This document shows, piece after piece, positions 1,172 to 18,963 of a stretch of 44,607 nt of DNA (the first letter of the stretch is position 1; every line of letters starts with the position of its first letter). The translations under genes and the position numbers were made by a program. Below the pieces are notes generated by a model that worked only from the letters and a program-made list of their open reading frames with translations, was not told the DNA's origin and made no database searches. The DNA comes from a virus: the IMG/VR virus record IMGVR_UViG_3300038435_000021, positions 1-44,607 of that record; one strand, written 5' to 3'.

Positions 1172-1227
1172 GCTGACACCCTGGCTACCGTGCCTTTACA
1201 CCCATAACCAACAAGGAGTAACACACC

Positions 1228-1542
1228 ATGACCACACTACATATCACCCATGGCCTCAACTACAACAGCCCCACTGACGAAACGATTGACGTAACCTTAA
1301 TCACCCTGTATGGTGAGCCCTTCGCGACTGGGCGCCCTCTGGATGGCCCCCAAGATGTGGGGTATGAGCAAGAGTGGGCTCACCCCTGCACCTTGCGCGA
1401 TGGTCGGGGAGGCTACGCAATGTTTCTATTCGATGACTCTGACCTCACCTATAAAGGAGAGCCCATAGAGCTGGAGTATTACCCATGGGACATTGACCAC
1501 GTGCACCGTATCAAGCTGGTCGAACGGGCAAAGCTTGGGTGA
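1228..1542 (+). CDS. Hypothetical acidic protein (104 aa)
   Basis: Function not recognised. The ribosome binding leader AAGGAGTAACACACC sits directly before the ATG and recurs almost unchanged before the gene at 2068. The composition suggests a soluble beta-rich protein (ETIDVTLITLYGEPF near the N-terminus; GEPIELEYYPWDIDH near the C-terminus). No membrane segment, Cys cluster or known catalytic motif is visible. The hammerhead ribozyme lies 40 bp after its stop codon, so a transcript running into the next gene would be cut between the two. Confidence 0.8.
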   Translation: MTTLHITHGLNYNSPTDETIDVTLITLYGEPFATGRPLDGPQDVGYEQEWAHPCTLRDGRGGYAMFLFDDSDLTYKGEPIELEYYPWDIDHVHRIKLVERAKLG

Positions 1543-1582
1543 TAATCAACCCCACACCTTAGGTTGGTAGCTCAACCCATAA

Positions 1583-1639
1583 GGGCGAAACTCCCCCTTC
1601 ACGGGGGAGTCCACGGGTAAGGCCCGTGCTGATGAGCCC
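1583..1639 (+). ncRNA. Type II hammerhead self-cleaving ribozyme
   Basis: All conserved core elements are present in the permuted order of a type II hammerhead. Stem II is GGGC (1583-1586) with GCCC (1636-1639) and includes the conserved G10.1-C11.1 pair. GAA (1587-1589) is the 12-14 core. Stem III is ACTCCCCC/GGGGGAGT (1590-1597 with 1603-1610), starting with the required A15.1-U16.1 pair. C1611 is the cleavage-site base (H17). Stem I is CACGGG/CCCGTG (1612-1617 with 1623-1628), followed directly by the CTGATGA core (1629-1635). Every stem pairs perfectly. Predicted cleavage is between 1611 and 1612, in the intergenic mRNA between the genes at 1228 and 1660. Cleavage would leave a 5'-OH end capped by stem I upstream of the next gene, and a 3' end closed by stem III. 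Confidence 0.93.
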
Positions 1640-1659
1640 CACACAAGAAAGGAGTCTCT

Positions 1660-2061
1660 ATGCTGACTACTGAAGAGCGAGTATGTTTGCGACAGAAGGC
1701 TATCGCCCGGCAAAAGAAGACACACGAACCATATGAGCTGGCCCTCTTGCGAGAGAGCATTAACCAAGGATACGCATATCCATCCTGGACCATTGATGAC
1801 CTCAGAGAGTACTTCAGCTCTCCCGAGGATGCACCCCTACTCACCCCCGACGACACTGTCCTCGACACCTATCACTATGGGTTGCACCGTATCCCATCGG
1901 GCACGGAGCAATTTGAAAACACCGTGGTTATCCTCTCATCCTTTGAAATGCGCAAGCGCGGGTGGATACGGATCAACGGTATCACGAAAGAATGGGACAT
2001 CCCCCACAATGAAGGCCAGGAAATTGACATTAACGCCTTGTTTGCTGCAGAAAAGGAGTAA
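1660..2061 (+). CDS. Hypothetical protein (133 aa) downstream of the ribozyme
   Basis: Function not recognised. The start is supported by AAAGGAG at 1648-1654. The N-terminal third is basic and helical (ERVCLRQKAIARQKK); the middle is acidic (DDLREYFSSPEDAP); no membrane segment or signal peptide is seen. It is the first gene on the 3' product of hammerhead cleavage, so its mRNA would begin with the stem I hairpin about 48 nt before the ATG. Confidence 0.75.
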   Translation: MLTTEERVCLRQKAIARQKKTHEPYELALLRESINQGYAYPSWTIDDLREYFSSPEDAPLLTPDDTVLDTYHYGLHRIPSGTEQFENTVVILSSFEMRKRGWIRINGITKEWDIPHNEGQEIDINALFAAEKE

Positions 2062-2067
2062 CACACC

Positions 2068-2493
2068 GTGACCACAGCAGACCACATGCTTTACAACGCA
2101 GTGTTTGTTCAATCCGAACTTGACACAGAGAAGGAAATGGCTGCCCTGCTTCGCGATGTCGAGGTTGCGGGCGCAAATGCCAGACACTATGGATTCACGT
2201 ATGACGATGAGTGCGTGAAATTTGTGGTGCGACATCGCGAGACCATTTTTACCGCGCTGGAAGAACTGGGAGAGGAGACGGGTGAGTATCCTGAGGACAT
2301 TGTCATGGGATTTAAGCAGCCTACCGGCTACACTCCAAAGGAAGTGAAACAAGTGCTCTATTGCACGGCGAATAGGGAGCATGAAGGGCACGTACTTGTC
2401 GCTGTTGCCCTCGCATGGTTCAGTTTGGAGCACGTTGCGTGGGTAGTCGGCAACGAAGCCATCACCCGATCGACAGGAGGATATGATGCCTAG
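2068..2493 (+). CDS. Hypothetical protein (141 aa), GTG start
   Basis: Function not recognised. It starts with GTG, preceded by AAAAGGAGTAACACACC, nearly the same leader as for the gene at 1228. The N-terminal two thirds are acidic and probably helical (EKEMAALLRDVEVAGANA; ETIFTALEELGEETGEYPED). A hydrophobic C-terminal stretch (LVAVALAWFSLEHVAWVVG, about residues 111-129) could be a membrane-associated helix. The 3' end overlaps the pentapeptide-repeat gene by a few codons, suggesting coupled translation. Confidence 0.75.
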   Translation: MTTADHMLYNAVFVQSELDTEKEMAALLRDVEVAGANARHYGFTYDDECVKFVVRHRETIFTALEELGEETGEYPEDIVMGFKQPTGYTPKEVKQVLYCTANREHEGHVLVAVALAWFSLEHVAWVVGNEAITRSTGGYDA

Positions 2494-3280
2494 GGTAGAA
2501 ATCAAGGACATAGACGGCAACGCCATGACTACAAAGGCATACAAGTCGTGGAAGGCAGCACTGGGAAGCCGTACAAATTGGGAACGGGCAATGTTGGTAA
2601 ACACTACACTAGATAACCTTGATTTGTCCGGCTACAACTTTGACGGGGCCAACCTATGTGGCACCACCTTTCGCCAAGTAAATTTGCGAGGGGCAACGTT
2701 TCGCAAGGCGAATTTACGGGAGACCGCCTTTGAACAAACCACCATGGCTGGCGCACGGTTTGATCGTGCAATGATGGACAGGGCGGTACTGTACCAGTGT
2801 GGGATACATAGTGCGGTATTTGATCACTGTATGCTTACCAGGGCGACACTAGAAGATCTTTCAACAGATGGACGTACATCGTGGGTAGGTACATATTTTA
2901 GTTACACTATATTGCGTGATATTGTCTTAGGGCGGACGCCCCTTACTGGGTGTGACTTTTGCGAGGCCGATATGGAAGGCGCCATCTTGGTAGGTCCCCA
3001 TGTTATAGATGCTGGTCAAGATGTCCGGGGGTATAGGTTCTTCGCGACACAAAACGAAGACGGGGTTGTGGTTGTCCACGTTGGGTGTCAGCAGTTTGTC
3101 GGCGTGCAAGAGGCTCGCAGCTACAACTATGAACACGAGTATGCCCCGATCTATAAAGAGTGTCTCGCAAAAGTGACGATGATCGCGGCAGGGGCCAAAG
3201 CGCGAGGATGGAAGTTGGAGCCCAAACAAACCAAACAGCCAAGGAAACGGACCAGAGCAGACGCCCATGTATGGTCGTAA
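2486..3280 (+). CDS. Pentapeptide-repeat protein (264 aa)
   Basis: Residues of about 45-170 follow the A(D/N)LXX pattern of pentapeptide-repeat proteins (LDLSGYNFDGANLCG, VNLRGATFRKANLRE, MAGARFDRAMMDRAVL, then a looser run). Such repeats fold as a right-handed quadrilateral beta helix, and some mimic DNA and bind DNA gyrase. The C-terminal part (VRGYRFFA, VGCQQFVGVQEAR) resembles a domain I recall at the end of similar phage proteins. Start 2486 is preferred to the ATG at 2483 because AGGAGG (2475-2480) is then correctly spaced. The far C-terminus is basic (KQPRKRTRAD). Gyrase or DNA mimicry is possible but not shown. Confidence 0.85.
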   Translation: MPRVEIKDIDGNAMTTKAYKSWKAALGSRTNWERAMLVNTTLDNLDLSGYNFDGANLCGTTFRQVNLRGATFRKANLRETAFEQTTMAGARFDRAMMDRAVLYQCGIHSAVFDHCMLTRATLEDLSTDGRTSWVGTYFSYTILRDIVLGRTPLTGCDFCEADMEGAILVGPHVIDAGQDVRGYRFFATQNEDGVVVVHVGCQQFVGVQEARSYNYEHEYAPIYKECLAKVTMIAAGAKARGWKLEPKQTKQPRKRTRADAHVWS

Positions 3281-3377: not shown

Positions 3378-3557
3378 ATGATCTTCAAATGTTGCCAACA
3401 AGATGATTGTCTCGTGGTCGAATTTGATGGACCAGTGCGTGAAGTACATGAAGCCATGGCCCGACTCATAAAGAAGCCTACCATCCTGGTCAAAGAGCGG
3501 TCACACACCTCGGGCACTCCCACCCTGTACGTCAAGCTGACCATCGACCGCAATTAA
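3378..3557 (+). CDS. Small hypothetical protein (59 aa)
   Basis: Function not recognised. The start at 3378 has AAGGAG at 3364-3369; an upstream in-frame ATG at 3336 has none. The compact protein begins MIFKCCQQDDCLVVEF and has three Cys near the N-terminus (CCQQDDC), possibly metal-binding. It is last in the first gene cluster, and its TAA stop is built into the degenerate 15-bp site at 3553-3567. Confidence 0.65.
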   Translation: MIFKCCQQDDCLVVEFDGPVREVHEAMARLIKKPTILVKERSHTSGTPTLYVKLTIDRN

Positions 3558-3567
3558 ATCATTTAAC
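3553..3567 (+). repeat. 15-bp genome-wide site, copy 2 (one mismatch)
   Basis: ATTAAATCATTTAAC, differing from the consensus only in the first base. It contains the stop codon of the preceding gene and opens the control region of the ParB-like gene. Confidence 0.75.
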
Positions 3568-3616
3568 ACACAGTGTGTAGGGTGATCGGAGTATATACCC
3601 ACGATGAAAGTATGTA

Positions 3617-3664
3617 TGTCACAATTGTGACGTGTTACAATTGTGACATGTCACAAATGTACCA
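3617..3664. promoter_or_regulatory. Three tandem 16-bp palindromic operators
   Basis: Three units abut exactly: TGTCACAATTGTGACG (3617-3632), TGTTACAATTGTGACA (3633-3648) and a degenerate TGTCACAAATGTACCA (3649-3664). The inferred ideal site TGTCACAATTGTGACA is a perfect 16-bp palindrome, as for a dimeric helix-turn-helix regulator bound once every 1.5 turns. The array lies about 80 bp upstream of the promoter-like element of the ParB-like gene, so it probably activates or represses it. The regulator is unknown; the ParB-like protein itself or a host factor are options. Confidence 0.7.
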
Positions 3665-7506: not shown

Positions 7507-9628
7507 TTACATAGACTACTTACTGCTACTCTTGAGAGGGGACCTCCCCCCTTCACTCTTTAGTGATAAGCAATTTGTTCGCCTTTCTCCTATTGTTCAG
7601 GCTGTCTTATTGCTCAAGGAGAAGGGCGAAGAACCCCCATATGATGTCGAACGAGTACGCACGATAGCCTGTAAGAAGTTTACCGCGAACAGTGGGCACG
7701 AGAAACTACTTGACCAGGTGAGCGAGGCGACACCTGACAGGGTAGTGTTGGAGGTGGTGCAACAGCGACTCATTATGGAAAAGCTGGTGCAAGAAGCAAC
7801 GGCGCAACTTGCGTCAGGCGCATACAATCCATTGCGGCTAGAACAATACCTGTCTTCGGCGCAAAGCACGGTTGCTCCCTACGTGCATAGTGTCCAGAAA
7901 CCCAATGAGGCAGTAGGCATGGTGGAGTTTCTTACACGCAGTGGGATAATGGAGTTGGACCAAGTGATAGGTGGGTTTGGGGCAGAGCTGTGGATTGTGA
8001 GTGCACGAGTGAAGACTGGGAAAGCGGTTAAGAAAGGAACAAAAGTTCTCACAACCAAAGGGTGGTGCCCTGTAGATAGTCTCATCGCGGGTATGGCTGT
8101 TATTGGAAGTGACGGAAAGCCCACTAAAGTGGTGCATACGGTACAATGGGCTAATCAACAAATGTATGAGCTAGCATTTGACGATGGCGCAATATGTGTG
8201 GTAGGTGAACACCACGATTGGCTTACATCACGACGGGGGTGGCGCGAGTACCAGGTAAGAGAAACCGGATATATGGCCCGCAATCAAGCCAAGACCAAGA
8301 AGAACGGCTACACCCAACGCTGGCGCATACCATGCCCTGCTCCTGTGGAGTTACCCCCTCTACAAACCGCGTTGCCTATACGCCCCGCCCATATGGCAGC
8401 ATTGTTAGCGGATGGTGGGTTTACTGAGAGTATGCTTACGCTTACTATGTTACCTGAAGAGCTTGATACTCTACTGTCTGGGGTTGAACATAGGCGGTCC
8501 CAAAAGCCTAACAATAAAGCCGCAAGTGCTTCTATCTCTTGGAGCCATTCTCTGGGTATAGCCGTAGAGCAATACGGTTTACGAGGTAAACGAAGTCATG
8601 AAAAGTGGATACCCACCCCATACCTAGAGGGAAGTGTTGCTGAGCGAATGGAATTCTTGCAAACGTACATCACTACAGATGGTTGGACAAACCCTAGGGG
8701 GGGTTTTGAGTTATATACAACTAGCCCACAGATGAGGGATGGACTGAGGAGCCTCATACTTTCACTAGGAGGTATGGTAAGTATCCATACGAAAGAAGGG
8801 AGATACAAGAATAGCAAGGGAGATATAGTGCATTGTAAACAAGCATTCACCCTAGGCGGCTATATCCCAGGGGATACCAAGAAAAAGACCTTGGGCCGTA
8901 CCATAGTGAAGTTCAAGAAGCTGAAAGAAAAGCAAACCGCATACTGCATTACAGTGGCAGCAAATGACGGGCTGTTTGTGATGGACGATTATTTACTCAC
9001 ACACAACTCTCATTTCCTCCTAAACGTGACGGCACGTCAACCAGCAACGGTGCGCACGCTCTACATCACCGTGGCAGACTACGGGCAACATGCGATTAAC
9101 TACATCCTCAACACGATTGATCCACGCACGTATCAGACCAAGAGCAAGAGCCTCTTCATTGCAGACATGACGGGGTTTGACGCGACCGTACTCGATGTTG
9201 AGACATGTCTCAAGAAGTACCGACCACGTCTGTGTATTGTCGACCGAGCCGAGAAGCTGAAACCCTTGCGCACGGCTGACACGACACGCATGGGGGTGGG
9301 TGAAACCTTTGATGTGTTGCGCCAGTATGCGCGGAAATACCAGTGCGCCATGATCACTGATGCCCAGTACTCCTCCTATGGTGCCGATTTGGTGCGTCAA
9401 GGGCGGGGCATGAGCAGTGAGTTCATGAGTGAGGACCGGACCCAACGGCAGGGTGTGATGGACGGGTGGATAGGGCTTGAGCGCCTTCATGGCCAAGAGG
9501 GATTGCCTGCCAATGGGTGGAGATTATGGTTAGAAGGGCGGCGACCGGGGAAACTTCCAGACACGGTGATTGTCCCAACCACACAGTACGGCGTCATTAC
9601 TTCGCCAATAGGGGGCCGCAATGGGTAA
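7499..9628 (+). CDS. DnaB-like replicative helicase precursor interrupted by an intein (709 aa)
   Basis: Exteins are residues 1-175 and 504-709, giving a mature protein of 381 aa with a RecA-like motor. Walker A is split by the intein: VSARVKTGK ends the N-extein and SHFLLNV begins the C-extein, restoring a P-loop-like ARVKTGKS. Walker B is RLCIVD in the C-extein, and a helicase-like TDAQYSSYGADLVRQGRG segment follows. The short N-terminal region is helical, as in DnaB-type helicases that bind primase. It follows the TOPRIM primase and overlaps neighbouring genes at both ends. It should unwind the fork and recruit the primase; activity would require protein splicing. Confidence 0.85.
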   Translation: MNDYIDYLLLLLRGDLPPSLFSDKQFVRLSPIVQAVLLLKEKGEEPPYDVERVRTIACKKFTANSGHEKLLDQVSEATPDRVVLEVVQQRLIMEKLVQEATAQLASGAYNPLRLEQYLSSAQSTVAPYVHSVQKPNEAVGMVEFLTRSGIMELDQVIGGFGAELWIVSARVKTGKAVKKGTKVLTTKGWCPVDSLIAGMAVIGSDGKPTKVVHTVQWANQQMYELAFDDGAICVVGEHHDWLTSRRGWREYQVRETGYMARNQAKTKKNGYTQRWRIPCPAPVELPPLQTALPIRPAHMAALLADGGFTESMLTLTMLPEELDTLLSGVEHRRSQKPNNKAASASISWSHSLGIAVEQYGLRGKRSHEKWIPTPYLEGSVAERMEFLQTYITTDGWTNPRGGFELYTTSPQMRDGLRSLILSLGGMVSIHTKEGRYKNSKGDIVHCKQAFTLGGYIPGDTKKKTLGRTIVKFKKLKEKQTAYCITVAANDGLFVMDDYLLTHNSHFLLNVTARQPATVRTLYITVADYGQHAINYILNTIDPRTYQTKSKSLFIADMTGFDATVLDVETCLKKYRPRLCIVDRAEKLKPLRTADTTRMGVGETFDVLRQYARKYQCAMITDAQYSSYGADLVRQGRGMSSEFMSEDRTQRQGVMDGWIGLERLHGQEGLPANGWRLWLEGRRPGKLPDTVIVPTTQYGVITSPIGGRNG
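8024..9007 (+). other. Class 3 intein with LAGLIDADG endonuclease inside the helicase P-loop (328 aa)
   Basis: The element starts with Ala (AVKKGTKVLTTKGWCPV) in place of the usual Cys or Ser, and ends TAYCITVAANDG ... LLTHN before Ser+1. It carries the WCT triad of class 3 inteins: Trp66 (block B, GEHHDWLT), Cys308 (block F, AYCITV) and Thr326 (block G, THN). In that class the block F Cys forms the branched intermediate. Two LAGLIDADG-like segments (MAALLADGGF and FLQTYITTDGW) show a homing endonuclease domain. Insertion is exactly between Lys and Ser of GKS, a known site for intein entry into phage DnaB genes. Confidence 0.88.
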
Positions 9629-10304
9629 AGTGAAAAAAGTGAAATGGGCATGGTTTAAGACGTTGTTCAGAACGCAAGCTGAGCAAATGGAGTATGGGGC
9701 AACGTGGACTCCAGGTCCAACGAACCCACGTTGTGTCAAGTGTGGGTTGTTCAAACAGACATACACACCCTACACATACCCTATCATCAGGGGTCCCACA
9801 GTATTTATGGTTGGCCCTCCCACCCCTGAAGAATCCTATGATGGTGAAATGGGGAGAGGGCGTGAACGGTTAGTGCTCACAAAGTACGTAGTAGATGGTT
9901 TGCTGGACGAACACGAATATAGCATTGTCCCTGCCGTCTTGTGTCGTGCGGCGAAAGGGCCAGTCAAACCCACAACCATACAACTTGCAGCATGTCGCCC
10001 CTTTATTGCCCACTTGTTGCAGCGCATTAAGAGCAAGCAGTCACTCCGCATTATCGCCATGGGTGTGGAAGCAGCAGCGCAAGCACTGCAGCGCGCAGTG
10101 ACCCTGAAGGACTATGTCGGCCACACGGTTATTACTCCGTTGGGTGACATCACAGTGACCTACTCCCCCGGCACGGTGTTAGTACAAGATGCCCAAGAAG
10201 GTGGTCTACGTGTGGGCATGTTGGATGTGATCAAGGCGCACGTGCGCCGGTTTGTCCGGCGTGAACCAGCAAAGGAGTTTCCCCCAATGGAGATATTACC
10301 ATGA
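9621..10304 (+). CDS. Uracil-DNA glycosylase superfamily protein, family 4/5-like (227 aa)
   Basis: An N-terminal CVKC in PRCVKCGLFKQ (about 37-47), a GPPTPEE loop (71-77), an ACRPFIAHLLQ segment (124-134) followed by IIAMGVEA, and SPGTVLVQ near the C-terminus resemble the layout of Fe-S-type uracil-DNA glycosylases. The second Cys pair expected for the 4Fe-4S cluster is not fully clear (C108 and C125 are candidates). Such proteins often sit beside or are fused to phage family A polymerases, as here. It may remove uracil or act as a polymerase partner. It overlaps the helicase by 8 bp. Confidence 0.75.
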   Translation: MGKVKKVKWAWFKTLFRTQAEQMEYGATWTPGPTNPRCVKCGLFKQTYTPYTYPIIRGPTVFMVGPPTPEESYDGEMGRGRERLVLTKYVVDGLLDEHEYSIVPAVLCRAAKGPVKPTTIQLAACRPFIAHLLQRIKSKQSLRIIAMGVEAAAQALQRAVTLKDYVGHTVITPLGDITVTYSPGTVLVQDAQEGGLRVGMLDVIKAHVRRFVRREPAKEFPPMEILP

Positions 10305-10738
10305 CCAAAATGCGAATAGCAGTGATGTGTAGTGGTGTGTATATTGCTGTCCTACTAGTAGCTAGTGGGATTACCACTGTGAGAACATGTCGGCGTGCGG
10401 TAGAGTTCAGCGTGGAGGTGGAAAGATTTGATGAGTTAGTGGCGGAGTTGTACTTCCAGTGCCAGAAGACAAAGGGACAACCAGTTGAATGTGGGCAACT
10501 CCCACAACTTGCCCATAAGTCGTACACGTACCACCAACACCTCAAGGAGGCCCATGCGCAATGCCTAAGCTCAAGCCTGTTGTTACCGTTGATCAAGAAT
10601 GGGACCGAGACACTGGGAGATTCCTTTGTGCCGCGTGGTACACCAAAGGAAAGCTCACCGGCACCAACTCCCTCTCAACCTTCTGTAAAGCAATGGCCGA
10701 TCTCCCCCCTGATGTGGCTATCAGAGGTCACAATGTAG
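10301..10738 (+). CDS. Putative membrane-anchored protein overlapping the DNA polymerase start (145 aa)
   Basis: The ATG overlaps the preceding stop (ATGA). The N-terminus has one clear transmembrane segment (VMCSGVYIAVLLVASGIT, about 8-25), followed by a charged helical region (VEVERFDELVAELYFQ) and three Cys. The last 178 nt overlap the DNA polymerase in another frame and encode a Ser/Pro-rich tail (SSPAPTPSQPS), which looks less protein-like. The polymerase ribosome binding site lies inside this gene. It could be a membrane anchor or an inner-membrane spanin-like protein; no outer-membrane partner is seen. It may be real only in its first 85 codons. Confidence 0.5.
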   Translation: MTKMRIAVMCSGVYIAVLLVASGITTVRTCRRAVEFSVEVERFDELVAELYFQCQKTKGQPVECGQLPQLAHKSYTYHQHLKEAHAQCLSSSLLLPLIKNGTETLGDSFVPRGTPKESSPAPTPSQPSVKQWPISPLMWLSEVTM

Positions 10739-12336
10739 CAAGTGCTGATGTGAGGAAGTGGGTAGAATGGGGCATCCCCCTCCCAGAGCACTTCACTGTA
10801 GAAGATTCCCTCATTGCTGCTAGGTTCTTACATCCTCTCTATCCCGAGAAGAAGCTCGACTTCCTCGCGAAGTTGGAAGGGTACGTTTATGGGGATGTTC
10901 ACGGTGAAGGGAATGTTGAGACCAACTTGTCCGGGTGTGGGAAGTCCGCGTACACAACACACAAACTGTACGAGCTATACAAAGCGCAGGCAGCGAAGCG
11001 TGGGCAGTTAAATCATTTAACTGTGTACAACAAGATTGCGCAAGCGTTTAGTGCACTGGAAGTGGCCGGGCTCAAGGTGGATGTGACCAAGTTGGGTGCG
11101 GCGAGTGACGCAGCGAACAACCGCCTTATGGAGCTGGTCCCTCTTCTCCCAGACCCACACGTCATCACGAACGATGGTATACTGCGCTCATGGTTGGCGA
11201 CTCTCTACTCACCTGAGCAGCTGGAGTTACTCCCTCGTAGCCACAAGAGCGGAGAAGCGCAGATTGGGAAAGAGTACCTCAAGTTGCTCAAGCCCCCGAT
11301 GCCTGAACTTGAGCCGATCATAGAAGCCAGAGAGATACATCGTGCAAAGACGGTGTTCATTGACAACGTACTTGAGAAGGTGAGTGAGTATGGGTTCATC
11401 TTCCCCTCGTACAAGCTGCTCGTTGCCAAGACCCAACGGCGCAGTAGTACCCCCAACATTCAGAACTGGCCTGATGAATACCGGCGCAACGTGATTTCAC
11501 GGTTCAAGGATGGAAAGATTGTCACGTTGGACTTTGCATCACTTGAGGCACGGTGTTTCGCATGGCAAGCGCAGTGTGATGACTTCCTTCACGCAATGAT
11601 GGCAGGCGGCTATGTGGCTGTCGCTAGTCAGTGTTTGGGGATTACGATCAAGGACAAGAAAGACCCCCGGTACAAGCAAGTCAAGAGCACGGTGTTAGCG
11701 GTGACCTACAACATGAGTCCCGGCCTCTTCGCCTTTCGCGAATTTGTCGCCAGTGGGGGCACGGTGCGCATGTCTGTGAGTGATGCTCAGAAACAGTATG
11801 ACATGTTGTTTGATCGGTATCCCGAGATACATGCTGAGATGGAGAGACGCAAAGCCCATGCGTGGAGCACGGGCCACACGATGAGCAGTGTAGGTGTGCC
11901 TCTCCAGGTGCCTCTTCTCCCAGATGATTTGATGCCCGCGAATGATCCACAGTGGGTGAAGCACTACCGCAAGAAGGTGGAGAATTGGGCAATCAATTGG
12001 CCGACACAGCAGCTTGCGTCATACATTACGGGGTGTGCATTGTGGGATGTACAGGATCGTCTTGCCCAAGAACATGGTGGGTGGGGAAGGTATATGGAGC
12101 TGTTGTATGAGAACACGCAGCGCAAACGGGCCATCCACAAAATGATTACCCCTATCAATGAGGTACACGACGCCTTGGGGTGTGACGTCCCCGCAGATAT
12201 GGTCGGTGAAGCACTGGAGATGGTGGACAGTGCAATGTGTGAGGGTGTGACGTTGCAGACTATTTGCCCACAATTTAATGTCTCTATACTGGGAACCGAG
12301 AGTAAGGTAGGGCCTAGTTGGGACGAAGGAGATTAG
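10561..12336 (+). CDS. Family A DNA polymerase with 3'-5' exonuclease domain (591 aa)
   Basis: Exonuclease motif I is TVDQEWD (Asp11, Glu13), motif II RGHNVASAD and motif III around FLHPLYPEKKLDFLA. In the polymerase domain motif A is TLDFASLEARCFAW (Asp324), motif B is KSTVLAVTYNMSPG with Asn where most enzymes have Gly after Tyr, and motif C is EVHDAL (Asp537). Length and layout fit T7- or SPO1-like replicative enzymes without a 5' nuclease. The start at 10561 is supported by AAGGAGG (10544-10550) and by exonuclease motif I lying only 10 residues in. An exact 15-bp site lies within the coding region (11007-11021). It replicates the phage genome with the upstream primase and helicase. Confidence 0.93.
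   Translation: MPKLKPVVTVDQEWDRDTGRFLCAAWYTKGKLTGTNSLSTFCKAMADLPPDVAIRGHNVASADVRKWVEWGIPLPEHFTVEDSLIAARFLHPLYPEKKLDFLAKLEGYVYGDVHGEGNVETNLSGCGKSAYTTHKLYELYKAQAAKRGQLNHLTVYNKIAQAFSALEVAGLKVDVTKLGAASDAANNRLMELVPLLPDPHVITNDGILRSWLATLYSPEQLELLPRSHKSGEAQIGKEYLKLLKPPMPELEPIIEAREIHRAKTVFIDNVLEKVSEYGFIFPSYKLLVAKTQRRSSTPNIQNWPDEYRRNVISRFKDGKIVTLDFASLEARCFAWQAQCDDFLHAMMAGGYVAVASQCLGITIKDKKDPRYKQVKSTVLAVTYNMSPGLFAFREFVASGGTVRMSVSDAQKQYDMLFDRYPEIHAEMERRKAHAWSTGHTMSSVGVPLQVPLLPDDLMPANDPQWVKHYRKKVENWAINWPTQQLASYITGCALWDVQDRLAQEHGGWGRYMELLYENTQRKRAIHKMITPINEVHDALGCDVPADMVGEALEMVDSAMCEGVTLQTICPQFNVSILGTESKVGPSWDEGD
11007..11021 (+). repeat. 15-bp genome-wide site, copy 5 (exact)
   Basis: GTTAAATCATTTAAC within the DNA polymerase gene, read there as Leu-Asn-His-Leu-Thr in the linker between exonuclease and polymerase domains, a place that tolerates a fixed DNA sequence. 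Confidence 0.9.
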
Positions 12337-12337
12337 T

Positions 12338-12628
12338 ATGAAGGATATGACAGGGAAACAAGTAGGCATCGGTGACAAGGTGATTATTGCAAACAAGCAC
12401 ATCACCGGTGGGTTGCAGTTTGGGCTGGTGGTATGGGTGGAAGAAAATGCGGCTCTCGTTGGGGTGCCATACCAGGGGTATAAGTCCACGGTGAGTCAAC
12501 ACATTGTGGTTGAGTTTTCCCAGAATATCTATGTGGTCCCGGCGCTATCGTATACAGCACCTAAAACATATCCGGTTCATTCCAACGATGAGCAAGTGGG
12601 GAGAACATATGCCGCTGTCTCCGTTTGA
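12338..12628 (+). CDS. Hypothetical small beta-rich protein (96 aa)
   Basis: Function not recognised. GAAGGAG precedes the ATG, which follows the polymerase stop by 1 bp. The sequence alternates hydrophobic and polar residues (VGIGDKVIIANKHITG, GLVVWVEENAALVGVPY), suggesting a small beta-barrel such as an SH3- or KOW-like fold. It has no Cys and no membrane segment. The 3' end overlaps the next gene by 20 bp. Confidence 0.7.
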   Translation: MKDMTGKQVGIGDKVIIANKHITGGLQFGLVVWVEENAALVGVPYQGYKSTVSQHIVVEFSQNIYVVPALSYTAPKTYPVHSNDEQVGRTYAAVSV

Positions 12629-12977
12629 GAAACACTGCGTGCTGGAGTACACGAACTATTACGAGCCAACGAGCTTTGGTCATGATGAGTTCCGGCGTGC
12701 TGACATGATTGTGGCGCAACTGCGAGGGCTCGCATTTGAGAAGGTCCCACTCCCACCTCATCACATACTGGGGAGTGCAACAGCCACACCCCCACTACAA
12801 CCACGAATTGAAACACAATGGCGTCTTAAAGGTGTAGGGTACAAACAGAAGCATGCATACCGCAGGGTGGTTGACGATGTGTGTGAGTGGGCACAGTGTG
12901 CTTCAATCGTGGATGCCCTACTCATGATAAAAGAGTTTCAAATGGTGTATCGCAAACGACAACATCAACCGTTCTAA
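12609..12977 (+). CDS. Hypothetical protein (122 aa)
   Basis: Function not recognised. Start 12609 (MPLSPFEKHC) is chosen because GGGGAGA lies just upstream; the open frame extends back to 12504 but there it overlaps the previous gene. The protein has a Pro/His-rich centre (VPLPPHHILGSATATPP) and a helical basic C-terminus (IKEFQMVYRKRQHQPF). It sits between the polymerase and a basic-tailed protein in the replication operon. Confidence 0.65.
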   Translation: MPLSPFEKHCVLEYTNYYEPTSFGHDEFRRADMIVAQLRGLAFEKVPLPPHHILGSATATPPLQPRIETQWRLKGVGYKQKHAYRRVVDDVCEWAQCASIVDALLMIKEFQMVYRKRQHQPF

Positions 12978-12990
12978 GAAAGGAGATCCT

Positions 12991-13506
12991 ATGACGTGGC
13001 CAAGTCAACAACCAAATGGTAATCAAGCTGGGTTTGGAAATCGCGGTGGGAATCAACCGAGTGGGTGGGGCGGTCAGCAGCAACCGAAGAAACAATACCC
13101 TGAGAGCTTCCCGCTAGGTGGGGAGGATGGAAGCGCGGTGTTCATTGGTGATGGTCGTACTCCTGTGGTCACCAAAGGGGTGTTCACGATTCGACAGATG
13201 ATCGCCGTGCTTGAGCACGTTGAATCATTGGGCTTTGAGAAGTGCTCATTGCGTCAGATTCAAATGCGAGACAAGCCACACCTTGCCGTCACCTTGGTCT
13301 GTGGGTATACGGAAGAGCAGGCGCAAGGTGTTCAAGGTAGTGGGCAAGGTGTTCATGGTGGTGGACAACAGTTTGCCCAACGCTATGAGGCTCCAGTTGC
13401 GCCACAAGCCGAGGCAGAGCACACCCCTGCTCCTCCTCGTGCGCCAGCACCCAAGTCTGCACCGAAGAAAACAGCTGCAAAGAAAACAGCCGTGCGTCGT
13501 AAGTAA
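12991..13506 (+). CDS. Putative DNA-associated protein with Gly/Gln-rich head and histone-like tail (171 aa)
   Basis: Three regions are visible: an Asn/Gly/Gln-rich N-terminus (about 1-35, NQAGFGNRGGNQPSGWGG), a folded core (about 45-110; GVFTIRQMIAVLEHVESLG), and a low-complexity C-terminus that becomes Ala/Pro/Lys-rich (APKSAPKKTAAKKTAVRRK), like histone H1 or bacterial histone-like tails. This argues for nucleic-acid binding. It lacks the acidic tip typical of bacterial SSB, so a classic SSB is unlikely, though the operon has no other SSB candidate. An exact 15-bp site starts at the base after its stop codon. AAAGGAG supports the start. Confidence 0.7.
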   Translation: MTWPSQQPNGNQAGFGNRGGNQPSGWGGQQQPKKQYPESFPLGGEDGSAVFIGDGRTPVVTKGVFTIRQMIAVLEHVESLGFEKCSLRQIQMRDKPHLAVTLVCGYTEEQAQGVQGSGQGVHGGGQQFAQRYEAPVAPQAEAEHTPAPPRAPAPKSAPKKTAAKKTAVRRK

Positions 13507-13521
13507 GTTAAATCATTTAAC
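13507..13521 (+). repeat. 15-bp genome-wide site, copy 6 (exact)
   Basis: GTTAAATCATTTAAC begins at the base after the TAA stop of the preceding gene and ends 9 bp before the AAGGAG of the next. Confidence 0.9.
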
Positions 13522-13542
13522 TCACCGCAGAAGGAGTCTCAA

Positions 13543-13887
13543 GTGGTAGACAACATCAAATTGCTCGCACGTATGGCCCACGTTATCCAAAGGACTGTCT
13601 ATGATCTTGGAGGAGAGATTGCCCGGCTATACAAGATAGCGGATCTCATAGGTAAACGAGAGGAGTATGTGACCGACCATGACGCAGCGTTCGATGAAAC
13701 GTTACTCACCTACATCGATGTCATGTCTGTGTTTGATGAGCTGAATGCAGAGAACGGTGAGTATCTGAGTGAAACCTTAGAGAAAGAGTTCACTGCGGTG
13801 TATGAGCCCTGGTACAACGCAGGTGCTGAGGGTTCAGAGGTTGAGACGATCATTTCACAAATGGGAGGCAATTCGTATGGAAATTAA
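13543..13887 (+). CDS. Hypothetical acidic helical protein (114 aa), GTG start, paralogue of next gene
   Basis: Function not recognised. It starts with GTG after AAGGAG (13531-13536). The protein is mostly helical and acidic (GGEIARLYKIADLIGKREEY; ETLLTYIDVMSVFDELNAEN). Its arrangement of helix, acidic turn and DETLLTYIDV parallels the next protein (HDTLHTLLHTVPLFAHI), which suggests a tandem duplication. It overlaps that gene by 11 bp. Confidence 0.7.
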   Translation: MVDNIKLLARMAHVIQRTVYDLGGEIARLYKIADLIGKREEYVTDHDAAFDETLLTYIDVMSVFDELNAENGEYLSETLEKEFTAVYEPWYNAGAEGSEVETIISQMGGNSYGN

Positions 13888-14383
13888 CAATGTGGTACTT
13901 CGCTCAGACATGTACAAGGCGCTCGCCCGCCGTATTGAGTTTCTGTATGAAGAGATCGACGCATTAGAGCGCATTGACGAAGTGCTCGATGATACCATCC
14001 CAGAGTTGGGTGAGTACGATGATAAGGTGCATGACACGTTGCACACTCTTCTCCACACGGTGCCGTTATTTGCTCACATCGATTACCGTGACTACCCGTA
14101 CAACGTGAACGCAGTTGAAGAAGGGGAGGAAGAGGAAGAAGCTGAACCCACCTTTCAGGGTATATCTCGGTCCACATACCGTGAGTGGGAGGGTGTCTCA
14201 CAGAAGAATGAAAATGGCACCGGTGGTGCACTCAACCCGTCCGAAGAAGATGACGACGATGAGACGGCACACAGTGAAGATATACGCTCACTCTGTGAGT
14301 TTCAGTGCAAAGAGGCCCTAGCAGCAGTGGACAATGCAAAGGCAGCGCTGGAAGGAGCCTTGCGTGCGTATAGAGCTAAATGA
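13877..14383 (+). CDS. Hypothetical acidic protein (168 aa), paralogue of previous gene
   Basis: Function not recognised. Start 13877 has GGGAGG upstream and overlaps the previous gene. The N-terminal 70 residues are helical and resemble the gene before (ARRIEFLYEEIDALERIDEV). They are followed by a very acidic linker (EEGEEEEEAEP), a second acidic run (PSEEDDDDETAHSED) and a C-terminal Ala-rich helix (KEALAAVDNAKAALEGALRA). Acidic linkers of this sort suggest DNA mimicry or protein docking. It overlaps the nuclease start. Confidence 0.7.
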   Translation: MEINNVVLRSDMYKALARRIEFLYEEIDALERIDEVLDDTIPELGEYDDKVHDTLHTLLHTVPLFAHIDYRDYPYNVNAVEEGEEEEEAEPTFQGISRSTYREWEGVSQKNENGTGGALNPSEEDDDDETAHSEDIRSLCEFQCKEALAAVDNAKAALEGALRAYRAK

Positions 14384-15152
14384 GGAGCTGAGGGATAAGG
14401 TGCTCAGGGCAGTATCGGCGAGCATGGCCCACGAGACCCCGCGTGATGAGAAAATCCACGCCTCAGACCTCACCAGCCCACTAAAGGCATATTGGCAGCG
14501 CAAACACCCACTTCCTGCAATCCCCTATGAAGTTGGGTTCTGGCTCACTGGGCGTGCGCACCATTACTACCTTGTCTACGCATGCTCGGGAGTGGACGAC
14601 ACACAAGAGGCGTCGTTCTGGTCAGAAGAATTACAGTTGTTGTGGTCACCTGACTTGAATGCGGAGAATGCGGAGTTTAAAACCTCACGGCGATGGACTC
14701 CACCCACCTCTGAGGAAGAGGCAATGGAATCTCTGAAGTACTACCGGGACCAGTGTCTCACGTATGCAGTCGCAAAGGGGGTAAACTATTGGCACCTGAT
14801 TGTGCTCTACTTATCCCCGATGGAGAACGGCACTCGGAAGCTACTTGCCCCATTCCCAGAGGCGTATACGCTCTTCTTCACCGATGAGGAAATTGAGAAC
14901 CATCGTAAGTGGGTTCACTCCACGCGCACTAAGCTAGAGTGGGCACTGGCGCATGATGACCCGAGTCAGCTTGAGTTGTGCACGGACAAGTTCTGTTACC
15001 AGAACCGGGGCCAAGGGCGGGGAAAGCCCGCCTTGATTGAGCCACTCTGTAAGTGGTTCGAGGTGTGCAAACCAAAAGGCAGGTATGACCTATTCATTAA
15101 CCCACCATCGACCATCAAGGAAAAGATGGCGAGAAAGAGAGAAGCGGTATGA
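14364..15152 (+). CDS. RecB/Cas4-like PD-(D/E)XK exonuclease (262 aa)
   Basis: Motifs in order: H66 in GRAHHYYL, Asp97 in WSPDLNAENAEFKTS, Glu104 and Lys106 forming the ExK, and a QxxxY-type YRDQCLTYA (127-135), all typical of the RecB nuclease superfamily. C-terminal cysteines (LCTDKFC, later PLCKWFEVC) could hold a 4Fe-4S cluster as in Cas4 and AddB. The GTG at 14364 is chosen because AAGGAG (14352-14357) is well spaced, although the frame is open from 14334. It probably acts in recombination or end processing with the DEDD exonuclease and resolvase-like nuclease downstream. The stop overlaps the next ATG. Confidence 0.82.
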   Translation: MRIELNEELRDKVLRAVSASMAHETPRDEKIHASDLTSPLKAYWQRKHPLPAIPYEVGFWLTGRAHHYYLVYACSGVDDTQEASFWSEELQLLWSPDLNAENAEFKTSRRWTPPTSEEEAMESLKYYRDQCLTYAVAKGVNYWHLIVLYLSPMENGTRKLLAPFPEAYTLFFTDEEIENHRKWVHSTRTKLEWALAHDDPSQLELCTDKFCYQNRGQGRGKPALIEPLCKWFEVCKPKGRYDLFINPPSTIKEKMARKREAV

Positions 15153-15988
15153 CCATGATTACACGGTTGCTCGTTGCCTTACTCCTGTGTGTTTGGGGGG
15201 CAACCCCCTCGCATGGGCAAACACAAATATGCTACGTAGCCGGAAAGAACCATGTCGCAACGTGGGAGGACAAGTGGCTTCCCGGCATGCCACAACGTGA
15301 CGGGTTCTGGACAAATTCACTGTGCCCCAATTGGGCAGGCAAGTTGCCCGCCAGTGCTAGCACAACTGGGAAGCCACAGTGCTACGCCTCACTTCCGGTG
15401 GCCCCGCTCAATGTGTTCTCGGGATTTGGGAAGTGTCGACAACAAGAGAATGTGCTCACACAAGAGTGCCATTCTGCAGAAGTGTGCCTTGATGCCATGA
15501 AGAATGTGGGCACGGTCAATAATGCGTGCGTCGCAGAGACCAACACGGCAGTAGCAACGTGGGCTTACTCTATTGATTGCTCCAACGTGAGCCGCAAGTG
15601 GCGTGACAACTGGGGCGGCACGTGGTACCTAGACCAAGTGCAGCATCAGCGTGGCGTGTCAGGGTGGATTGACACCTCGACTTCCTACAGCAGCAAGGCC
15701 AAGTGTGGGTGGTGGCGTGTAAGTGGGAGCAAGTACCCTACTGGGTTTGCCGACATGAGCGGAACCTTCTCAGGAACCAAGGTGCCACAGAAGTCCTGCC
15801 TCACAACGGTGCAGATTAATGGCACCGTGGACGCGGACAAGTTGCAAGGCTCCTTCCGCAACAGCAAGGGACTCACCGGCCCATTCAACATGTACTCTAT
15901 TGAACCACCCCCTGGGTTCACGTGGTTCAATTGGAACCCCACCACCCCAGCGACCACATATAGTCGTGCGCCATGGGAGACGAACTAG
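15149..15988 (+). CDS. Secreted Cys-rich protein with signal peptide (279 aa)
   Basis: The N-terminus is a clear Sec signal peptide: MTMITR, a hydrophobic core LLVALLLCVWGA, then a cleavage region PSHGQ near residues 22-24. The exported part has about 12 Cys and many Trp and Tyr (WRDNWGGTWYLDQV; KCGWWRVSGSKYP), like an extracytoplasmic disulfide-bonded protein. Function not recognised; it may act in the periplasm or on the cell surface, for example in superinfection exclusion. It is out of place in a replication operon, yet is translationally coupled (ATGA) to the nuclease upstream. Confidence 0.75.
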   Translation: MTMITRLLVALLLCVWGATPSHGQTQICYVAGKNHVATWEDKWLPGMPQRDGFWTNSLCPNWAGKLPASASTTGKPQCYASLPVAPLNVFSGFGKCRQQENVLTQECHSAEVCLDAMKNVGTVNNACVAETNTAVATWAYSIDCSNVSRKWRDNWGGTWYLDQVQHQRGVSGWIDTSTSYSSKAKCGWWRVSGSKYPTGFADMSGTFSGTKVPQKSCLTTVQINGTVDADKLQGSFRNSKGLTGPFNMYSIEPPPGFTWFNWNPTTPATTYSRAPWETN

Positions 15989-16261
15989 ATGTATTCATAC
16001 TCTGATGATCCAGACTCGATGTACTACAAAGTGGTAGTACCCGTGATGAGCGCTCCGGCGCTTCCTCCTGGGTATGTCATCACAGATGTTGCTCGCCCTG
16101 ACTCACGGCACTACACCGAAGTGATGGCCGCACGGCAGGCCCCACCTCTTTCACACCTTGAGGGCCTCACACTTGCGCTTATGGCAACCGAGGGAAAACG
16201 GTACCCCTCATTCCAGGACCGGGCGCAAGCGATGATTGACCATATAAAGACCCAGTCGTAG
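15989..16261 (+). CDS. Small hypothetical protein (90 aa)
   Basis: Function not recognised. Its ATG follows the previous TAG directly and there is no clear ribosome binding site, so it depends on coupling. The sequence is Tyr/Asp/Pro-rich at the N-terminus (MYSYSDDPDSMYYK) and helical later (SHLEGLTLALMATEGKRYPS). It has no membrane segment. It is followed by a GC-rich hairpin and a 15-bp site. Confidence 0.65.
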   Translation: MYSYSDDPDSMYYKVVVPVMSAPALPPGYVITDVARPDSRHYTEVMAARQAPPLSHLEGLTLALMATEGKRYPSFQDRAQAMIDHIKTQS

Positions 16262-16269
16262 TCGCAACA

Positions 16270-16289
16270 GTGCGCCCTTTCGGGCGCAC
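16270..16289 (+). terminator. GC-rich hairpin after the gene ending at 16261
   Basis: GTGCGCCC, loop TTTC, GGGCGCAC: a perfect 8-bp stem 8 bp after the stop codon. With no U-tract it is more likely an mRNA stability or partial termination structure than a full terminator. The adjoining exact 15-bp site starts 5 bp further on. Confidence 0.55.
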
Positions 16290-16294
16290 GGTGA

Positions 16295-16309
16295 GTTAAA
16301 TCATTTAAC
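16295..16309 (+). repeat. 15-bp genome-wide site, copy 7 (exact)
   Basis: GTTAAATCATTTAAC in the short gap between the hairpin and the exonuclease gene, about 4 bp before that gene's ribosome binding site. Confidence 0.9.
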
Positions 16310-16325
16310 AACGAAGGGAGAATAC

Positions 16326-16949
16326 ATGCGCAAAGTGAAAGGTCCGAAGTCCAAAATACAACGCCTCACGCTAGAGGAAGTGAGTGAGGGGGCATCAGTG
16401 GGGGTGTGGGACCTTGAGTGCACCAGCCTCAATGCGGGGTTCGGCACGGTGTTGTGTTCCGGGCTGGCACCCCTCAGCGCAACAAAAGCCTCTGAGGTGC
16501 AAGTGTGGCGCATTGATGATTTTCACGATGATTCACGCCACTGGTGGAAGGATGGCCCATTGCTCAAGCAAATAGTGAAGGAGTTGAATCAGTATGAGTA
16601 CATCGTGGGGTTCAACACAAAGTGGTACGATGTTGCGTTCCTCGATACGCGCCTTATCAAGTGGGGCATTCAGCGGATGCTGGGCACCATTAAACACGTC
16701 GATGTGTTTCAGTTTGGTCGTAAGCGGTTGAGGGTGAACAATCGATCACAACAAGCACTCATCACTCACCTGCAGTGCGAGCACAACAAAACACCGCTCA
16801 CCCCCCTCATCTGGAGTAAGGCACAATTTGGCAACGTGTCCGCGCTCAATCAAATTGAAGAGCACAACGTGGCTGATGTGCTCTCGTTGGCTGAGGCGAC
16901 ACGCAAGTTGCTCCTTGTGACCAGCATCCCATGGCAGTACATTCGATAG
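16326..16949 (+). CDS. DEDD-type 3'-5' exonuclease / RNase H-like nuclease (207 aa)
   Basis: Motif I is VWDLECTSL with Asp29 and Glu31. Motif II is VGFNTKWYDVAFL, with the Asp after the N-x4-D pattern. Motif III is EEHNVADVLSLAE with the His and Asp of the DEDDh-like group. This resembles the RNase_H_2 family of predicted exonucleases. Single-domain length fits. It likely degrades nucleic acid during replication, recombination or host-DNA turnover. GAAGGGAG precedes the start at 16326. Confidence 0.8.
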   Translation: MRKVKGPKSKIQRLTLEEVSEGASVGVWDLECTSLNAGFGTVLCSGLAPLSATKASEVQVWRIDDFHDDSRHWWKDGPLLKQIVKELNQYEYIVGFNTKWYDVAFLDTRLIKWGIQRMLGTIKHVDVFQFGRKRLRVNNRSQQALITHLQCEHNKTPLTPLIWSKAQFGNVSALNQIEEHNVADVLSLAEATRKLLLVTSIPWQYIR

Positions 16950-16956
16950 GAGAAAT

Positions 16957-17424
16957 ATGACTGTCTATCACAAATACCCTGAAAGTATCTTTGATTCTTT
17001 TGCTGATGTGTTGGTGGTGCCTGTCAACTGCGTAGGGTCAATGGGTAAAGGGTTGGCCCTGGCAGTGAAGCTCCGATACCCGGCTGTGTATGAGGACTAC
17101 CAAGAGCTGTGTGCAACTCAGACTATTTGCCCTGGCAATACAGTGATAACGTACTATCTCCGTCGTGATTACCCCAAGGCGGTTGCGTTTCTTCCGACCA
17201 AAAATGATTGGCGAGAGAAAAGCACCATAGGGTTGGTGGCATCCGGGCTCGTCTCTTTCGCCCAGCGAGTGTATGACGATGTTGACGTTACGAGTGTTGC
17301 TATACCAGCCCTTGGGTGCGGAGCGGGGGGGCTTGTATGGGCTGACGTACAACCTCGCATTGAAGGGTTTGCGGCATTGTGCCCTCATATCACAACACAC
17401 ATTTACCCCCCACCGGGGTGCTAG
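16957..17424 (+). CDS. Macro-domain ADP-ribose-binding protein, DarG-like (155 aa)
   Basis: The macro fold is recognised by VVPVNCVGSMGKGLALAVKL (about 20-39), with the NCVGSMGKG loop typical of the DarG and ALC1-like branch, and PALGCGAGGLVWADV (110-124), the phosphate-binding loop. It is a single macro domain, shorter than full DarG antitoxin. DarG removes ADP-ribose that DarT toxin places on DNA, and DarTG systems defend against phage, so a counter-defence role is plausible. Alternatives are handling of ADP-ribose from other NAD-based defences, or ADP-ribose-1''-phosphate metabolism. Weak AGGAG precedes the ATG. Confidence 0.85.
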   Translation: MTVYHKYPESIFDSFADVLVVPVNCVGSMGKGLALAVKLRYPAVYEDYQELCATQTICPGNTVITYYLRRDYPKAVAFLPTKNDWREKSTIGLVASGLVSFAQRVYDDVDVTSVAIPALGCGAGGLVWADVQPRIEGFAALCPHITTHIYPPPGC

Positions 17425-17435
17425 AAGGAGTACAT

Positions 17436-17510
17436 ATGTTCTTCCTCATTTTATTGTGGTTGCTCATCGTTGTCATTGTGTTCTCTGCTGTGCGGGCGGG
17501 AGATAGATAA
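17436..17510 (+). CDS. Tiny membrane peptide (24 aa)
   Basis: A strong AGAAGGAG lies 5 bp before the ATG, and the stop overlaps the next start as TAATG. The peptide is one hydrophobic helix (FFLILLWLLIVVIVFSAV) with a short polar tail (RAGDR). No function is recognised. Candidates are a small holin-like or membrane-modulating peptide, or a leader peptide that couples translation of the secreted protein behind it. It is below usual gene-calling length, but the ribosome binding site and overlap support it. Confidence 0.6.
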   Translation: MFFLILLWLLIVVIVFSAVRAGDR

Positions 17511-18136
17511 TGTGGTATTTCGTTGTTACTGGGTTGTTCGTGGTACTGTCCGCTCTTCCCACGTGGGCAGTGCCCCTGTACTACTACACTGGCCTCTCTG
17601 ACACACCCCCTACAGCGCACCGTGTAGAAGCCACCCTGCGTATGGAGGCACATCCAACGTGTTACCGGGGGATGTGCCATGCGTTGGTGTGGGCCACGTT
17701 GTGGGACACAGACTCAGGTCAATATGTAGAGGCAGGGGTGGGGTACTCGCCACGGTTCAAATGCTCCCGCAAGAATAGTGTAGCACTGTGGTATGCTACG
17801 CCAGTGGAGTATGCCGGGACACCGGTGGGGTGTGTTCAACGTGGGGAGAAAGTGAGGGTTACGGTGGTCAAACGTGAGAATGAGGGTGTAGTGGTGGGGT
17901 GGGAATGGGGTGGGGCAAAGTTGGAGAAAGTGGTAGAGACCCCAGGGTGGACAACCCAGCCGGGAATAAGCCCGGTCAAGTTGGAAGTGTATTCGCGCTC
18001 TGGCGCGCCTGTGTATCCGGTGTCGGTGGAAGTGGAAGTGGAAGTGAGGTCCCCGGTGAGCGGGGTGCTACAACACACTGCGCCGTATGTGGTGCAACCA
18101 GAGAGTACACTCTCACGGTGGGAGGTGCGACAATGA
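17510..18136 (+). CDS. Secreted protein with signal peptide (208 aa)
   Basis: The N-terminus (YFVVTGLFVVLSALPTWAVP) is a signal peptide with a likely cut after TWA near residue 20. The exported part has four or more Cys (CYRGMCHALVW, FKCSRKN, VGCVQRG) and beta-type segments, ending in a Val/Glu repeat (VSVEVEVEVRSPVSG). Function not recognised. With the product of 15149 it is one of two exported proteins in the replication operon. Start is coupled to the tiny membrane peptide; the stop overlaps the nuclease start (ATGA). Confidence 0.75.
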   Translation: MWYFVVTGLFVVLSALPTWAVPLYYYTGLSDTPPTAHRVEATLRMEAHPTCYRGMCHALVWATLWDTDSGQYVEAGVGYSPRFKCSRKNSVALWYATPVEYAGTPVGCVQRGEKVRVTVVKRENEGVVVGWEWGGAKLEKVVETPGWTTQPGISPVKLEVYSRSGAPVYPVSVEVEVEVRSPVSGVLQHTAPYVVQPESTLSRWEVRQ

Positions 18137-18471
18137 AGGCGCAATCTGCCAAGGCCAAAGGGCGCAAGTTGCAGCAATTTGTGAGGGACACATTGAAGCG
18201 GATTGACCCCGCGTCGTCCTACTACTCACGGGCTATGGGCTCACAAGGAAGTGATGTGTACGGTGGGAAATTAGTGGGGGATGTTTATGTGGAGTGTCGC
18301 AATGTAGCAAACTACGAGTCCCTTAATGCGATTGTGGCAGAGATGAGAAAGGCCAGTAGGGGGTGGTGGTACATCACGAAACGACCGAAACAGCCACCGA
18401 TTGTGGTCCTTCCGTGGGAGGAGTTTGAGAAGCTCCTTGTCCAACGTGAAAGGAACACGGTGGAGAGGTAA
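18133..18471 (+). CDS. Holliday junction resolvase-like PD-(D/E)XK nuclease (112 aa)
   Basis: The layout KAKGRKLQQFVRDTL (about 7-21), SRAMGSQGSDV, KLVGDVYVECRN with the E-C-R at the ExK position, and PPIVVLPWEEFEKLL near the C-terminus matches the small Hjc-like or VRR-NUC-like endonuclease pattern. The usual Lys in ExK appears as Arg, a point to check. It would cleave branched DNA before packaging. GGGAGG lies upstream, and the ATG overlaps the previous stop. Confidence 0.65.
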   Translation: MKAQSAKAKGRKLQQFVRDTLKRIDPASSYYSRAMGSQGSDVYGGKLVGDVYVECRNVANYESLNAIVAEMRKASRGWWYITKRPKQPPIVVLPWEEFEKLLVQRERNTVER

Positions 18472-18474
18472 CAT

Positions 18475-18963
18475 ATGAGTGTATGGTCGGAGTGTTCATT
18501 CTTTAAGAAGAAGTTTATTCTACGCCCTGGTGAGAAGGTCCAGTATCTTGTCCGCTATATCATTGCTCGCACCCCCTGGTTCTCCTTCTACATCCACCAT
18601 TTCCTCGGTGTGGATGTTGGGGAGGAATTACACAACCACCCACGGAACTACATATCCATTGGGCTATCAGGAAGTTACGTAGAAGAGCGGGTGTCCTACA
18701 CAGGGGCCTCACGTGAAGCGTTTAATGCGCCGGTCTACTACACACGGTCCTACTGCGCCCCCTTCATGCGGCGCATTTCATCAACCACGGTACATCGGAT
18801 CACACAAGTGGAAGATTGCTGGACTGTGGTCCTAGGCGGACCAGTGAAACACGAATGGGGCTTCTTTGAACGGGACACGATGGTATACATCCCGGTGCAA
18901 AAGTATCTATCATTTCTTCAAGGAGGGCGTCGTACATGGCAAACAGAGACAGCAAAAGCATAA
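18475..18963 (+). CDS. Cupin-like protein (162 aa)
   Basis: An HNHPRNYISIGLSGSYVEE segment (about 53-71) supplies the HxH and Gly-containing strand of a cupin metal site; VHRITQVEDCWTVVLGGP (about 105-122) supplies the second half, ending in KHEWGFFE. This combination recurs in a phage cupin family of unknown substrate. The metal and reaction cannot be told from sequence. The ATG lies 4 bp after the previous stop, and GGAGAGG precedes it. Confidence 0.7.
   Translation: MSVWSECSFFKKKFILRPGEKVQYLVRYIIARTPWFSFYIHHFLGVDVGEELHNHPRNYISIGLSGSYVEERVSYTGASREAFNAPVYYTRSYCAPFMRRISSTTVHRITQVEDCWTVVLGGPVKHEWGFFERDTMVYIPVQKYLSFLQGGRRTWQTETAKA

Follow-up and report, generated by a model that had tools for sequence, protein, structure and literature searches.

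The question raised by this locus is whether a 117-nt spacer between two small phage genes encodes a self-cleaving ribozyme and, if so, what cleavage there would do to the phage transcript.

Genomic setting of the element

The window is the whole 44,607-base virus record IMGVR_UViG_3300038435_000021 of IMG/VR, which comes from an uncultured phage. We found PHROG matches in the window for a ParB-like protein, a primase, a DNA polymerase, a terminase, a major head protein and head-tail proteins, and no tRNA was found in it. Hence, the window derives from a tailed phage.

A run of small same-strand ORFs starts at 322, 773, 953, 1228, 1660, 2068 and 2483, and the element lies between the fourth (1228-1542, 104 aa) and the fifth (1660-2061, 133 aa). 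Both are on the + strand, as is the ribozyme, and neither has a Pfam or PHROG match. The preliminary description had called this region a polycistronic leader; its place within the run makes the element intercistronic rather than part of a leader. The spacing given there is accurate, as the stop codon at 1540-1542 is 40 nt upstream of the ribozyme and the start codon at 1660 is 20 nt downstream. The downstream gene has the Shine-Dalgarno sequence AAAGGAG (1648-1654, + strand). Simple scans, which are weak evidence, found neither a U-tract terminator between the flanking genes nor a sigma-70 promoter-like site in the spacer, and both genes are probably carried on one transcript.

Several repeats lie around the small-gene run. 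The translation-start regions at 1213-1236 and 2053-2076, 24 nt each and ahead of two different ORFs, are nearly identical (AAGGAGTAACACACC[A/G]TGACCACA). An exact 15-nt repeat, TTAAATCATTTAACA, occurs near the window start (100-114) and again just past the run, ahead of the ParB-like gene (3554-3568). Palindromic TGTCACAATTGTGACG-like sites at 3617-3649, upstream of the ParB-like gene at 3798, and a related site near 212 (212-227) are possible operator or parS-like sites. At the extreme contig end (1-99), a 33-nt unit occurs three times in tandem with the third copy at 91%; this repetition could be genuine or could stem from the end of the assembly.

Match, core and stems of the hammerhead

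We found that positions 1583-1643 (+ strand) match the Rfam Hammerhead_II covariance model (RF02276) with 38.4 bits against a curated gathering cut-off of 37, a marginal excess of 1.4 bits. The E-value is 2.1e-4 against all Rfam families in 44.6 kb and 5e-8 for Hammerhead_II alone. There was no second Rfam family or other ribozyme in the window at E <= 3, and 14 control genomes had no Hammerhead_II match at E <= 0.001. By RNAfold, the isolated 1583-1643 RNA folds into exactly the hammerhead structure (-32.0 kcal/mol, z -3.2).

Both direct reading and a script gave the following layout. Along the + strand, the element opens with the 5' arm of stem II, GGGC (1583-1586), and the core GAA (G12 A13 A14; 1587-1589). 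Stem-loop III (1590-1610) follows, with the A15.1-U16.1 pair (A1590-U1610) at its base and eight Watson-Crick pairs (1590-1597/1603-1610). C17 is at 1611, and the hammerhead consensus places the predicted scission between 1611 and 1612. Stem-loop I (1612-1628) has six Watson-Crick pairs (1612-1617/1623-1628) plus the wobble U1618-G1622, and it leads to the core CUGAUGA (C3-A9, 1629-1635; G5 at 1631, G8 at 1634). The 3' arm of stem II, GCCC, lies with the first tail base at 1636-1640 and forms four pairs (1583-1586/1636-1639). Stem II is thus the open stem, stems I and III are loop-closed, and the three stems have no mismatch. The invariant core (CUGAUGA, GAA, A15.1-U16.1 and H at 17) is complete.

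The preliminary description had claimed a type II hammerhead at 1583-1639 with the core CTGATGA, GAA, A15.1-U16.1 and C17, three perfectly paired stems with stem II open, and a cut ahead of 1612. The covariance-model score and the coordinates above agree with it on each point and add the extra U-G in stem I. The low margin over the cut-off might point to chance similarity or to two ordinary hairpins, but the family E-value, the control genomes without a match and the presence of every invariant core base make either hardly credible. The evidence supports 1583-1639 as a type II hammerhead that is putatively self-cleaving.

Pseudoknot, longer transcripts and the ribosome-binding site

Fast cleavage by hammerheads is helped by a pseudoknot between loop I and the tail. 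In the window copy this contact reaches 2 bp at most, a possible pairing of CC in 1636-1640 with GG in loop I (1621-1622). Among the survey matches listed (see below), a pseudoknot of at least 3 bp is possible in 92 of 118 members, with a mean of 3.4 compared to 2.9 for shuffled tails.

In longer RNAs (1543-1665, 1543-1720 and 1480-1720), RNAfold, a model that leaves out tertiary contacts and co-transcriptional folding, gave the active fold a probability of 0.001-0.02 and preferred folds that break stem II. A candidate switch in the upstream flank, pairing GCUC (1570-1573) with GAGC (1634-1637) and CCC (1576-1578) with GGG (1583-1585), reduces the predicted active fold, but 102 of 500 shuffled upstream flanks had as strong an effect. 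The switch was therefore rejected, and the competing folds in longer RNAs do not exceed what chance gives.

The element stops 8 nt short of the Shine-Dalgarno sequence, close enough for a ribozyme that gates downstream translation by hiding or freeing the ribosome-binding site. However, predicted accessibility is scarcely altered by cleavage: the mean unpaired probability of the Shine-Dalgarno sequence is 0.52-0.54 in precursor RNAs and 0.57 after cleavage, and that of the AUG is 0.41-0.45 and 0.56, respectively. We consider such gating very improbable.

Nearest relatives of the phage

The two nearest phages we found are a 32-kb viral contig (L121; whole contig, L124/L125), whose major capsid protein is 54% and polymerase 39% identical to those of the window, and MW202554, whose major capsid protein is 36% identical. 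The virion module is common to all three, and the window shares replication genes with the 32-kb contig too. The hammerhead is absent from both relatives; hence, the ribozyme is either no old fixture of this lineage or was lost in both. A 10.4-bit Hammerhead_II match in the 32-kb contig is at chance level and was discarded. Searching with the DNA polymerase turned up no additional relative. Neither the downstream ORF nor the ParB-like ORF had homologues among viral contigs, and window 1200-2500 had no DNA similarity to named phages.

Both relatives have repeat-rich regions of their own. In the 32-kb contig, a TAGCTA-rich cluster of direct and inverted repeats (L124, 12885-13065) gives spurious microRNA-family matches on both strands, and in MW202554 an inverted repeat of 73 nt (81%), located among the small genes (L123, 35772-36018), also gives spurious microRNA matches.

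Absence from the two relatives would suit a decayed or slow hammerhead, that is, a recent arrival or a remnant with weak cleavage and no influence on expression, as would the score barely above the cut-off, the short pseudoknot and the competing folds in the long transcript. However, core changes would be expected of a decaying element; here, all core nucleotides are intact and the stems of eight, six plus a wobble, and four pairs have no mismatch. We regard decay as quite unlikely.

Stem covariation across the phage family

Since the two nearest phages lack the hammerhead and no homologous copy of the locus was found, covariation could be tested across the family only. We ran an exact-core pattern on viral contigs, and the counts cover the matches listed, which are a sample. 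At least 129 sites in 96 loci have both stems of at least 4 bp, with the window's own copy (L001) counted in. Of 151 distinct phage pattern hits among the matches listed, 111 have stem III positions 3-6 fully paired, and 132 show full pairing at stem I positions 1-4. When the 3' arms were swapped between sequences, the mean numbers fully paired fell to 9 (stem III) and 13 (stem I), with maxima of 17 and 23, respectively. Nearly all tested stem positions among the matches listed include G-C, C-G, A-U and U-A pairs. Stem covariation across the phage family is strong. Thus, a lack of stem covariation in relatives, which the preliminary description had named as refuting its reading, is contradicted for the family.

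The same pattern in bacterial genomes found 120 stretches, and only 14 of these have both stems. Hence, true members are far commoner among the viral hits.

Position of the family relative to genes

Among the matches listed, we found that the 5' edge of the family sites lies a median of 3-4 nt past the stop codon of the upstream ORF, and that 65% of sites lie at -2 to 5 nt from the stop compared to 5% of 60 terminator-like hairpins from the same loci. Limiting the count to a single site for each locus and excluding shared flanks left 88 independent sites among the matches listed; 54 of these are at -2 to 5 nt, compared to 4.5% at random places (binomial p 6e-50), and 13 are at least 40 nt from the stop. 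A start codon preceded by a Shine-Dalgarno sequence is found 15-40 nt downstream in 86 of 124 sites among the matches listed. The order stop codon, ribozyme, Shine-Dalgarno sequence, start emerges from the survey as a sharp positional rule.

The window copy has the typical spacing downstream, with its Shine-Dalgarno-preceded start 22 nt past CTGATGAGC by the survey's measure, and is among the looser sites upstream, its 40 nt from the stop at 1542 being outside the stop-abutting range of about 5 nt. The preliminary reading of an intercistronic cut that separates two mRNAs is supported, as a prediction from sequence, by its fit to the position of the family in phages.

A 5' core strand within 5 nt of the stop, as in that 65% of family sites, lies within the footprint that a ribosome usually covers at termination. 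This favors a translation-coupled ribozyme, in which the ribosome finishing the upstream gene controls folding, and cleavage reports or is timed by upstream translation. However, the stop in the window, 40 nt off, is outside the footprint, the tight packing may merely mirror compact phage genomes, and anti-ribozyme pairings of the upstream flank are at chance level. We find coupling of this kind unlikely to explain the window copy.

Arrays of hammerheads

Rfam searches of 95 whole phage records found a match in 86 of them and two or more in 39, with a maximum of 24. This maximum is in record G042 (IMGVR_UViG_3300017605_000570), where bases 8500-18700 (stretch L246) hold 24 type II hammerheads by Rfam over 7.6 kb, or 22 by descriptor. 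The ribozymes there alternate almost one-for-one with ORFs mostly of 47-119 aa, and for most copies the distance from stop to ribozyme is -1 to 5 nt and from ribozyme to start 14-20 nt. The 21 parsed copies include 17 different sequences for stem III and 21 for stem I, every one of them paired. This divergence with pairing retained suggests that each copy is kept for function. Smaller groups, each of 4 to 10 type II hammerheads and likewise placed between small genes, were seen in five further stretches (L021, L030, L073, L079 and L247) and in records G003, G015 and G051.

Proposed mechanism

Our preferred reading is intercistronic self-cleavage of the phage transcript into separate hairpin-ended mRNAs, to which we give a probability of roughly 75%. 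A transcript spanning both genes would fold at the spacer and undergo self-cleavage between C1611 and C1612. This would leave the upstream mRNA ending in the stem III hairpin (-15.2 kcal/mol with C17) and a 2',3'-cyclic phosphate. The downstream mRNA would carry a 5'-OH and open with the stem I hairpin (-9.9 kcal/mol) about 48 nt ahead of its start codon. In this way, one polycistronic RNA could become mRNAs that decay separately, with neither a terminator nor a new promoter required. The type II stem order would leave a closed hairpin on either side of the cut, and these hairpins may protect the new RNA ends; we infer both this protection and cleavage in the cell.

Self-cleavage is favored by the RF02276 score above the cut-off, the exact core and fold, the same-strand genes, the negative terminator and promoter scans, the position of the family, the arrays, the covariation and the cleavage that Perreault et al. 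(PMC3088659) saw in comparable arrays. Against it stand the marginal score, the pseudoknot of at most 2 bp, the loose 40-nt gap, the competing folds in long transcripts (no stronger than chance) and the nearest phages without the element.

More tentatively, phage type II hammerheads may form a general system of gene punctuation, with a ribozyme at the stop of each small gene, hairpin-ended single-gene mRNAs as products and the terminating ribosome perhaps timing the cut in the stop-abutting majority. The window copy would then count as a member with looser spacing. We consider such a system possible and would not yet favor it. The window copy is one more candidate for a hammerhead role in phages, and the wider arrangement is of more interest than this single copy: the positional rule and the 24-copy array make a role in cutting polycistronic RNA directly testable.

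Comparison with known systems

The window element belongs to a kind that, as the preliminary description had noted, is known in phages. It has been known there since 2011, when Perreault et al. (PMC3088659) reported type II hammerheads from nature and suggested a role for them in cutting long transcripts of phages; the idea of intercistronic processing was published then. The element resembles these hammerheads (RF02276; PMC3088659) in its core, its stem order with stem II open and stems I and III loop-closed, and its location between phage genes. In contrast, the window copy is single and its pseudoknot has at most 2 bp, whereas the majority of type II hammerheads have a loop I-tail pseudoknot of four or more base pairs (PMC3088659).

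The clustered prophage hammerheads of Agrobacterium tumefaciens (ardA), Azorhizobium caulinodans and Clostridium scindens (PMC3088659) likewise border individual genes or short blocks of genes on polycistronic RNA. Tandem arrays comparable to those found here were cleaved in vitro, and the Agrobacterium array also in E. coli (PMC3088659). The window differs in having one ribozyme, of predicted activity, and neighboring genes without a known family.

HHphage of the haloviruses HF1 and HF2 is also a hammerhead situated shortly upstream of an early phage gene, and an mRNA 5' end has been mapped to within 3 nt of its cut (PMC3088659). However, its core is changed and its downstream gene is a helicase, whereas the window has a canonical core and genes without a family match. 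Theta ribozymes of gut phages (PMC10879173) are similarly small self-cleaving ribozymes of tailed phages set precisely beside a gene end, but they have an HDV-like fold and lie next to tRNA genes. As far as a partial literature search shows, the additions made here to the 2011 work are the positional rule with its controls and the array of 24 ribozymes.
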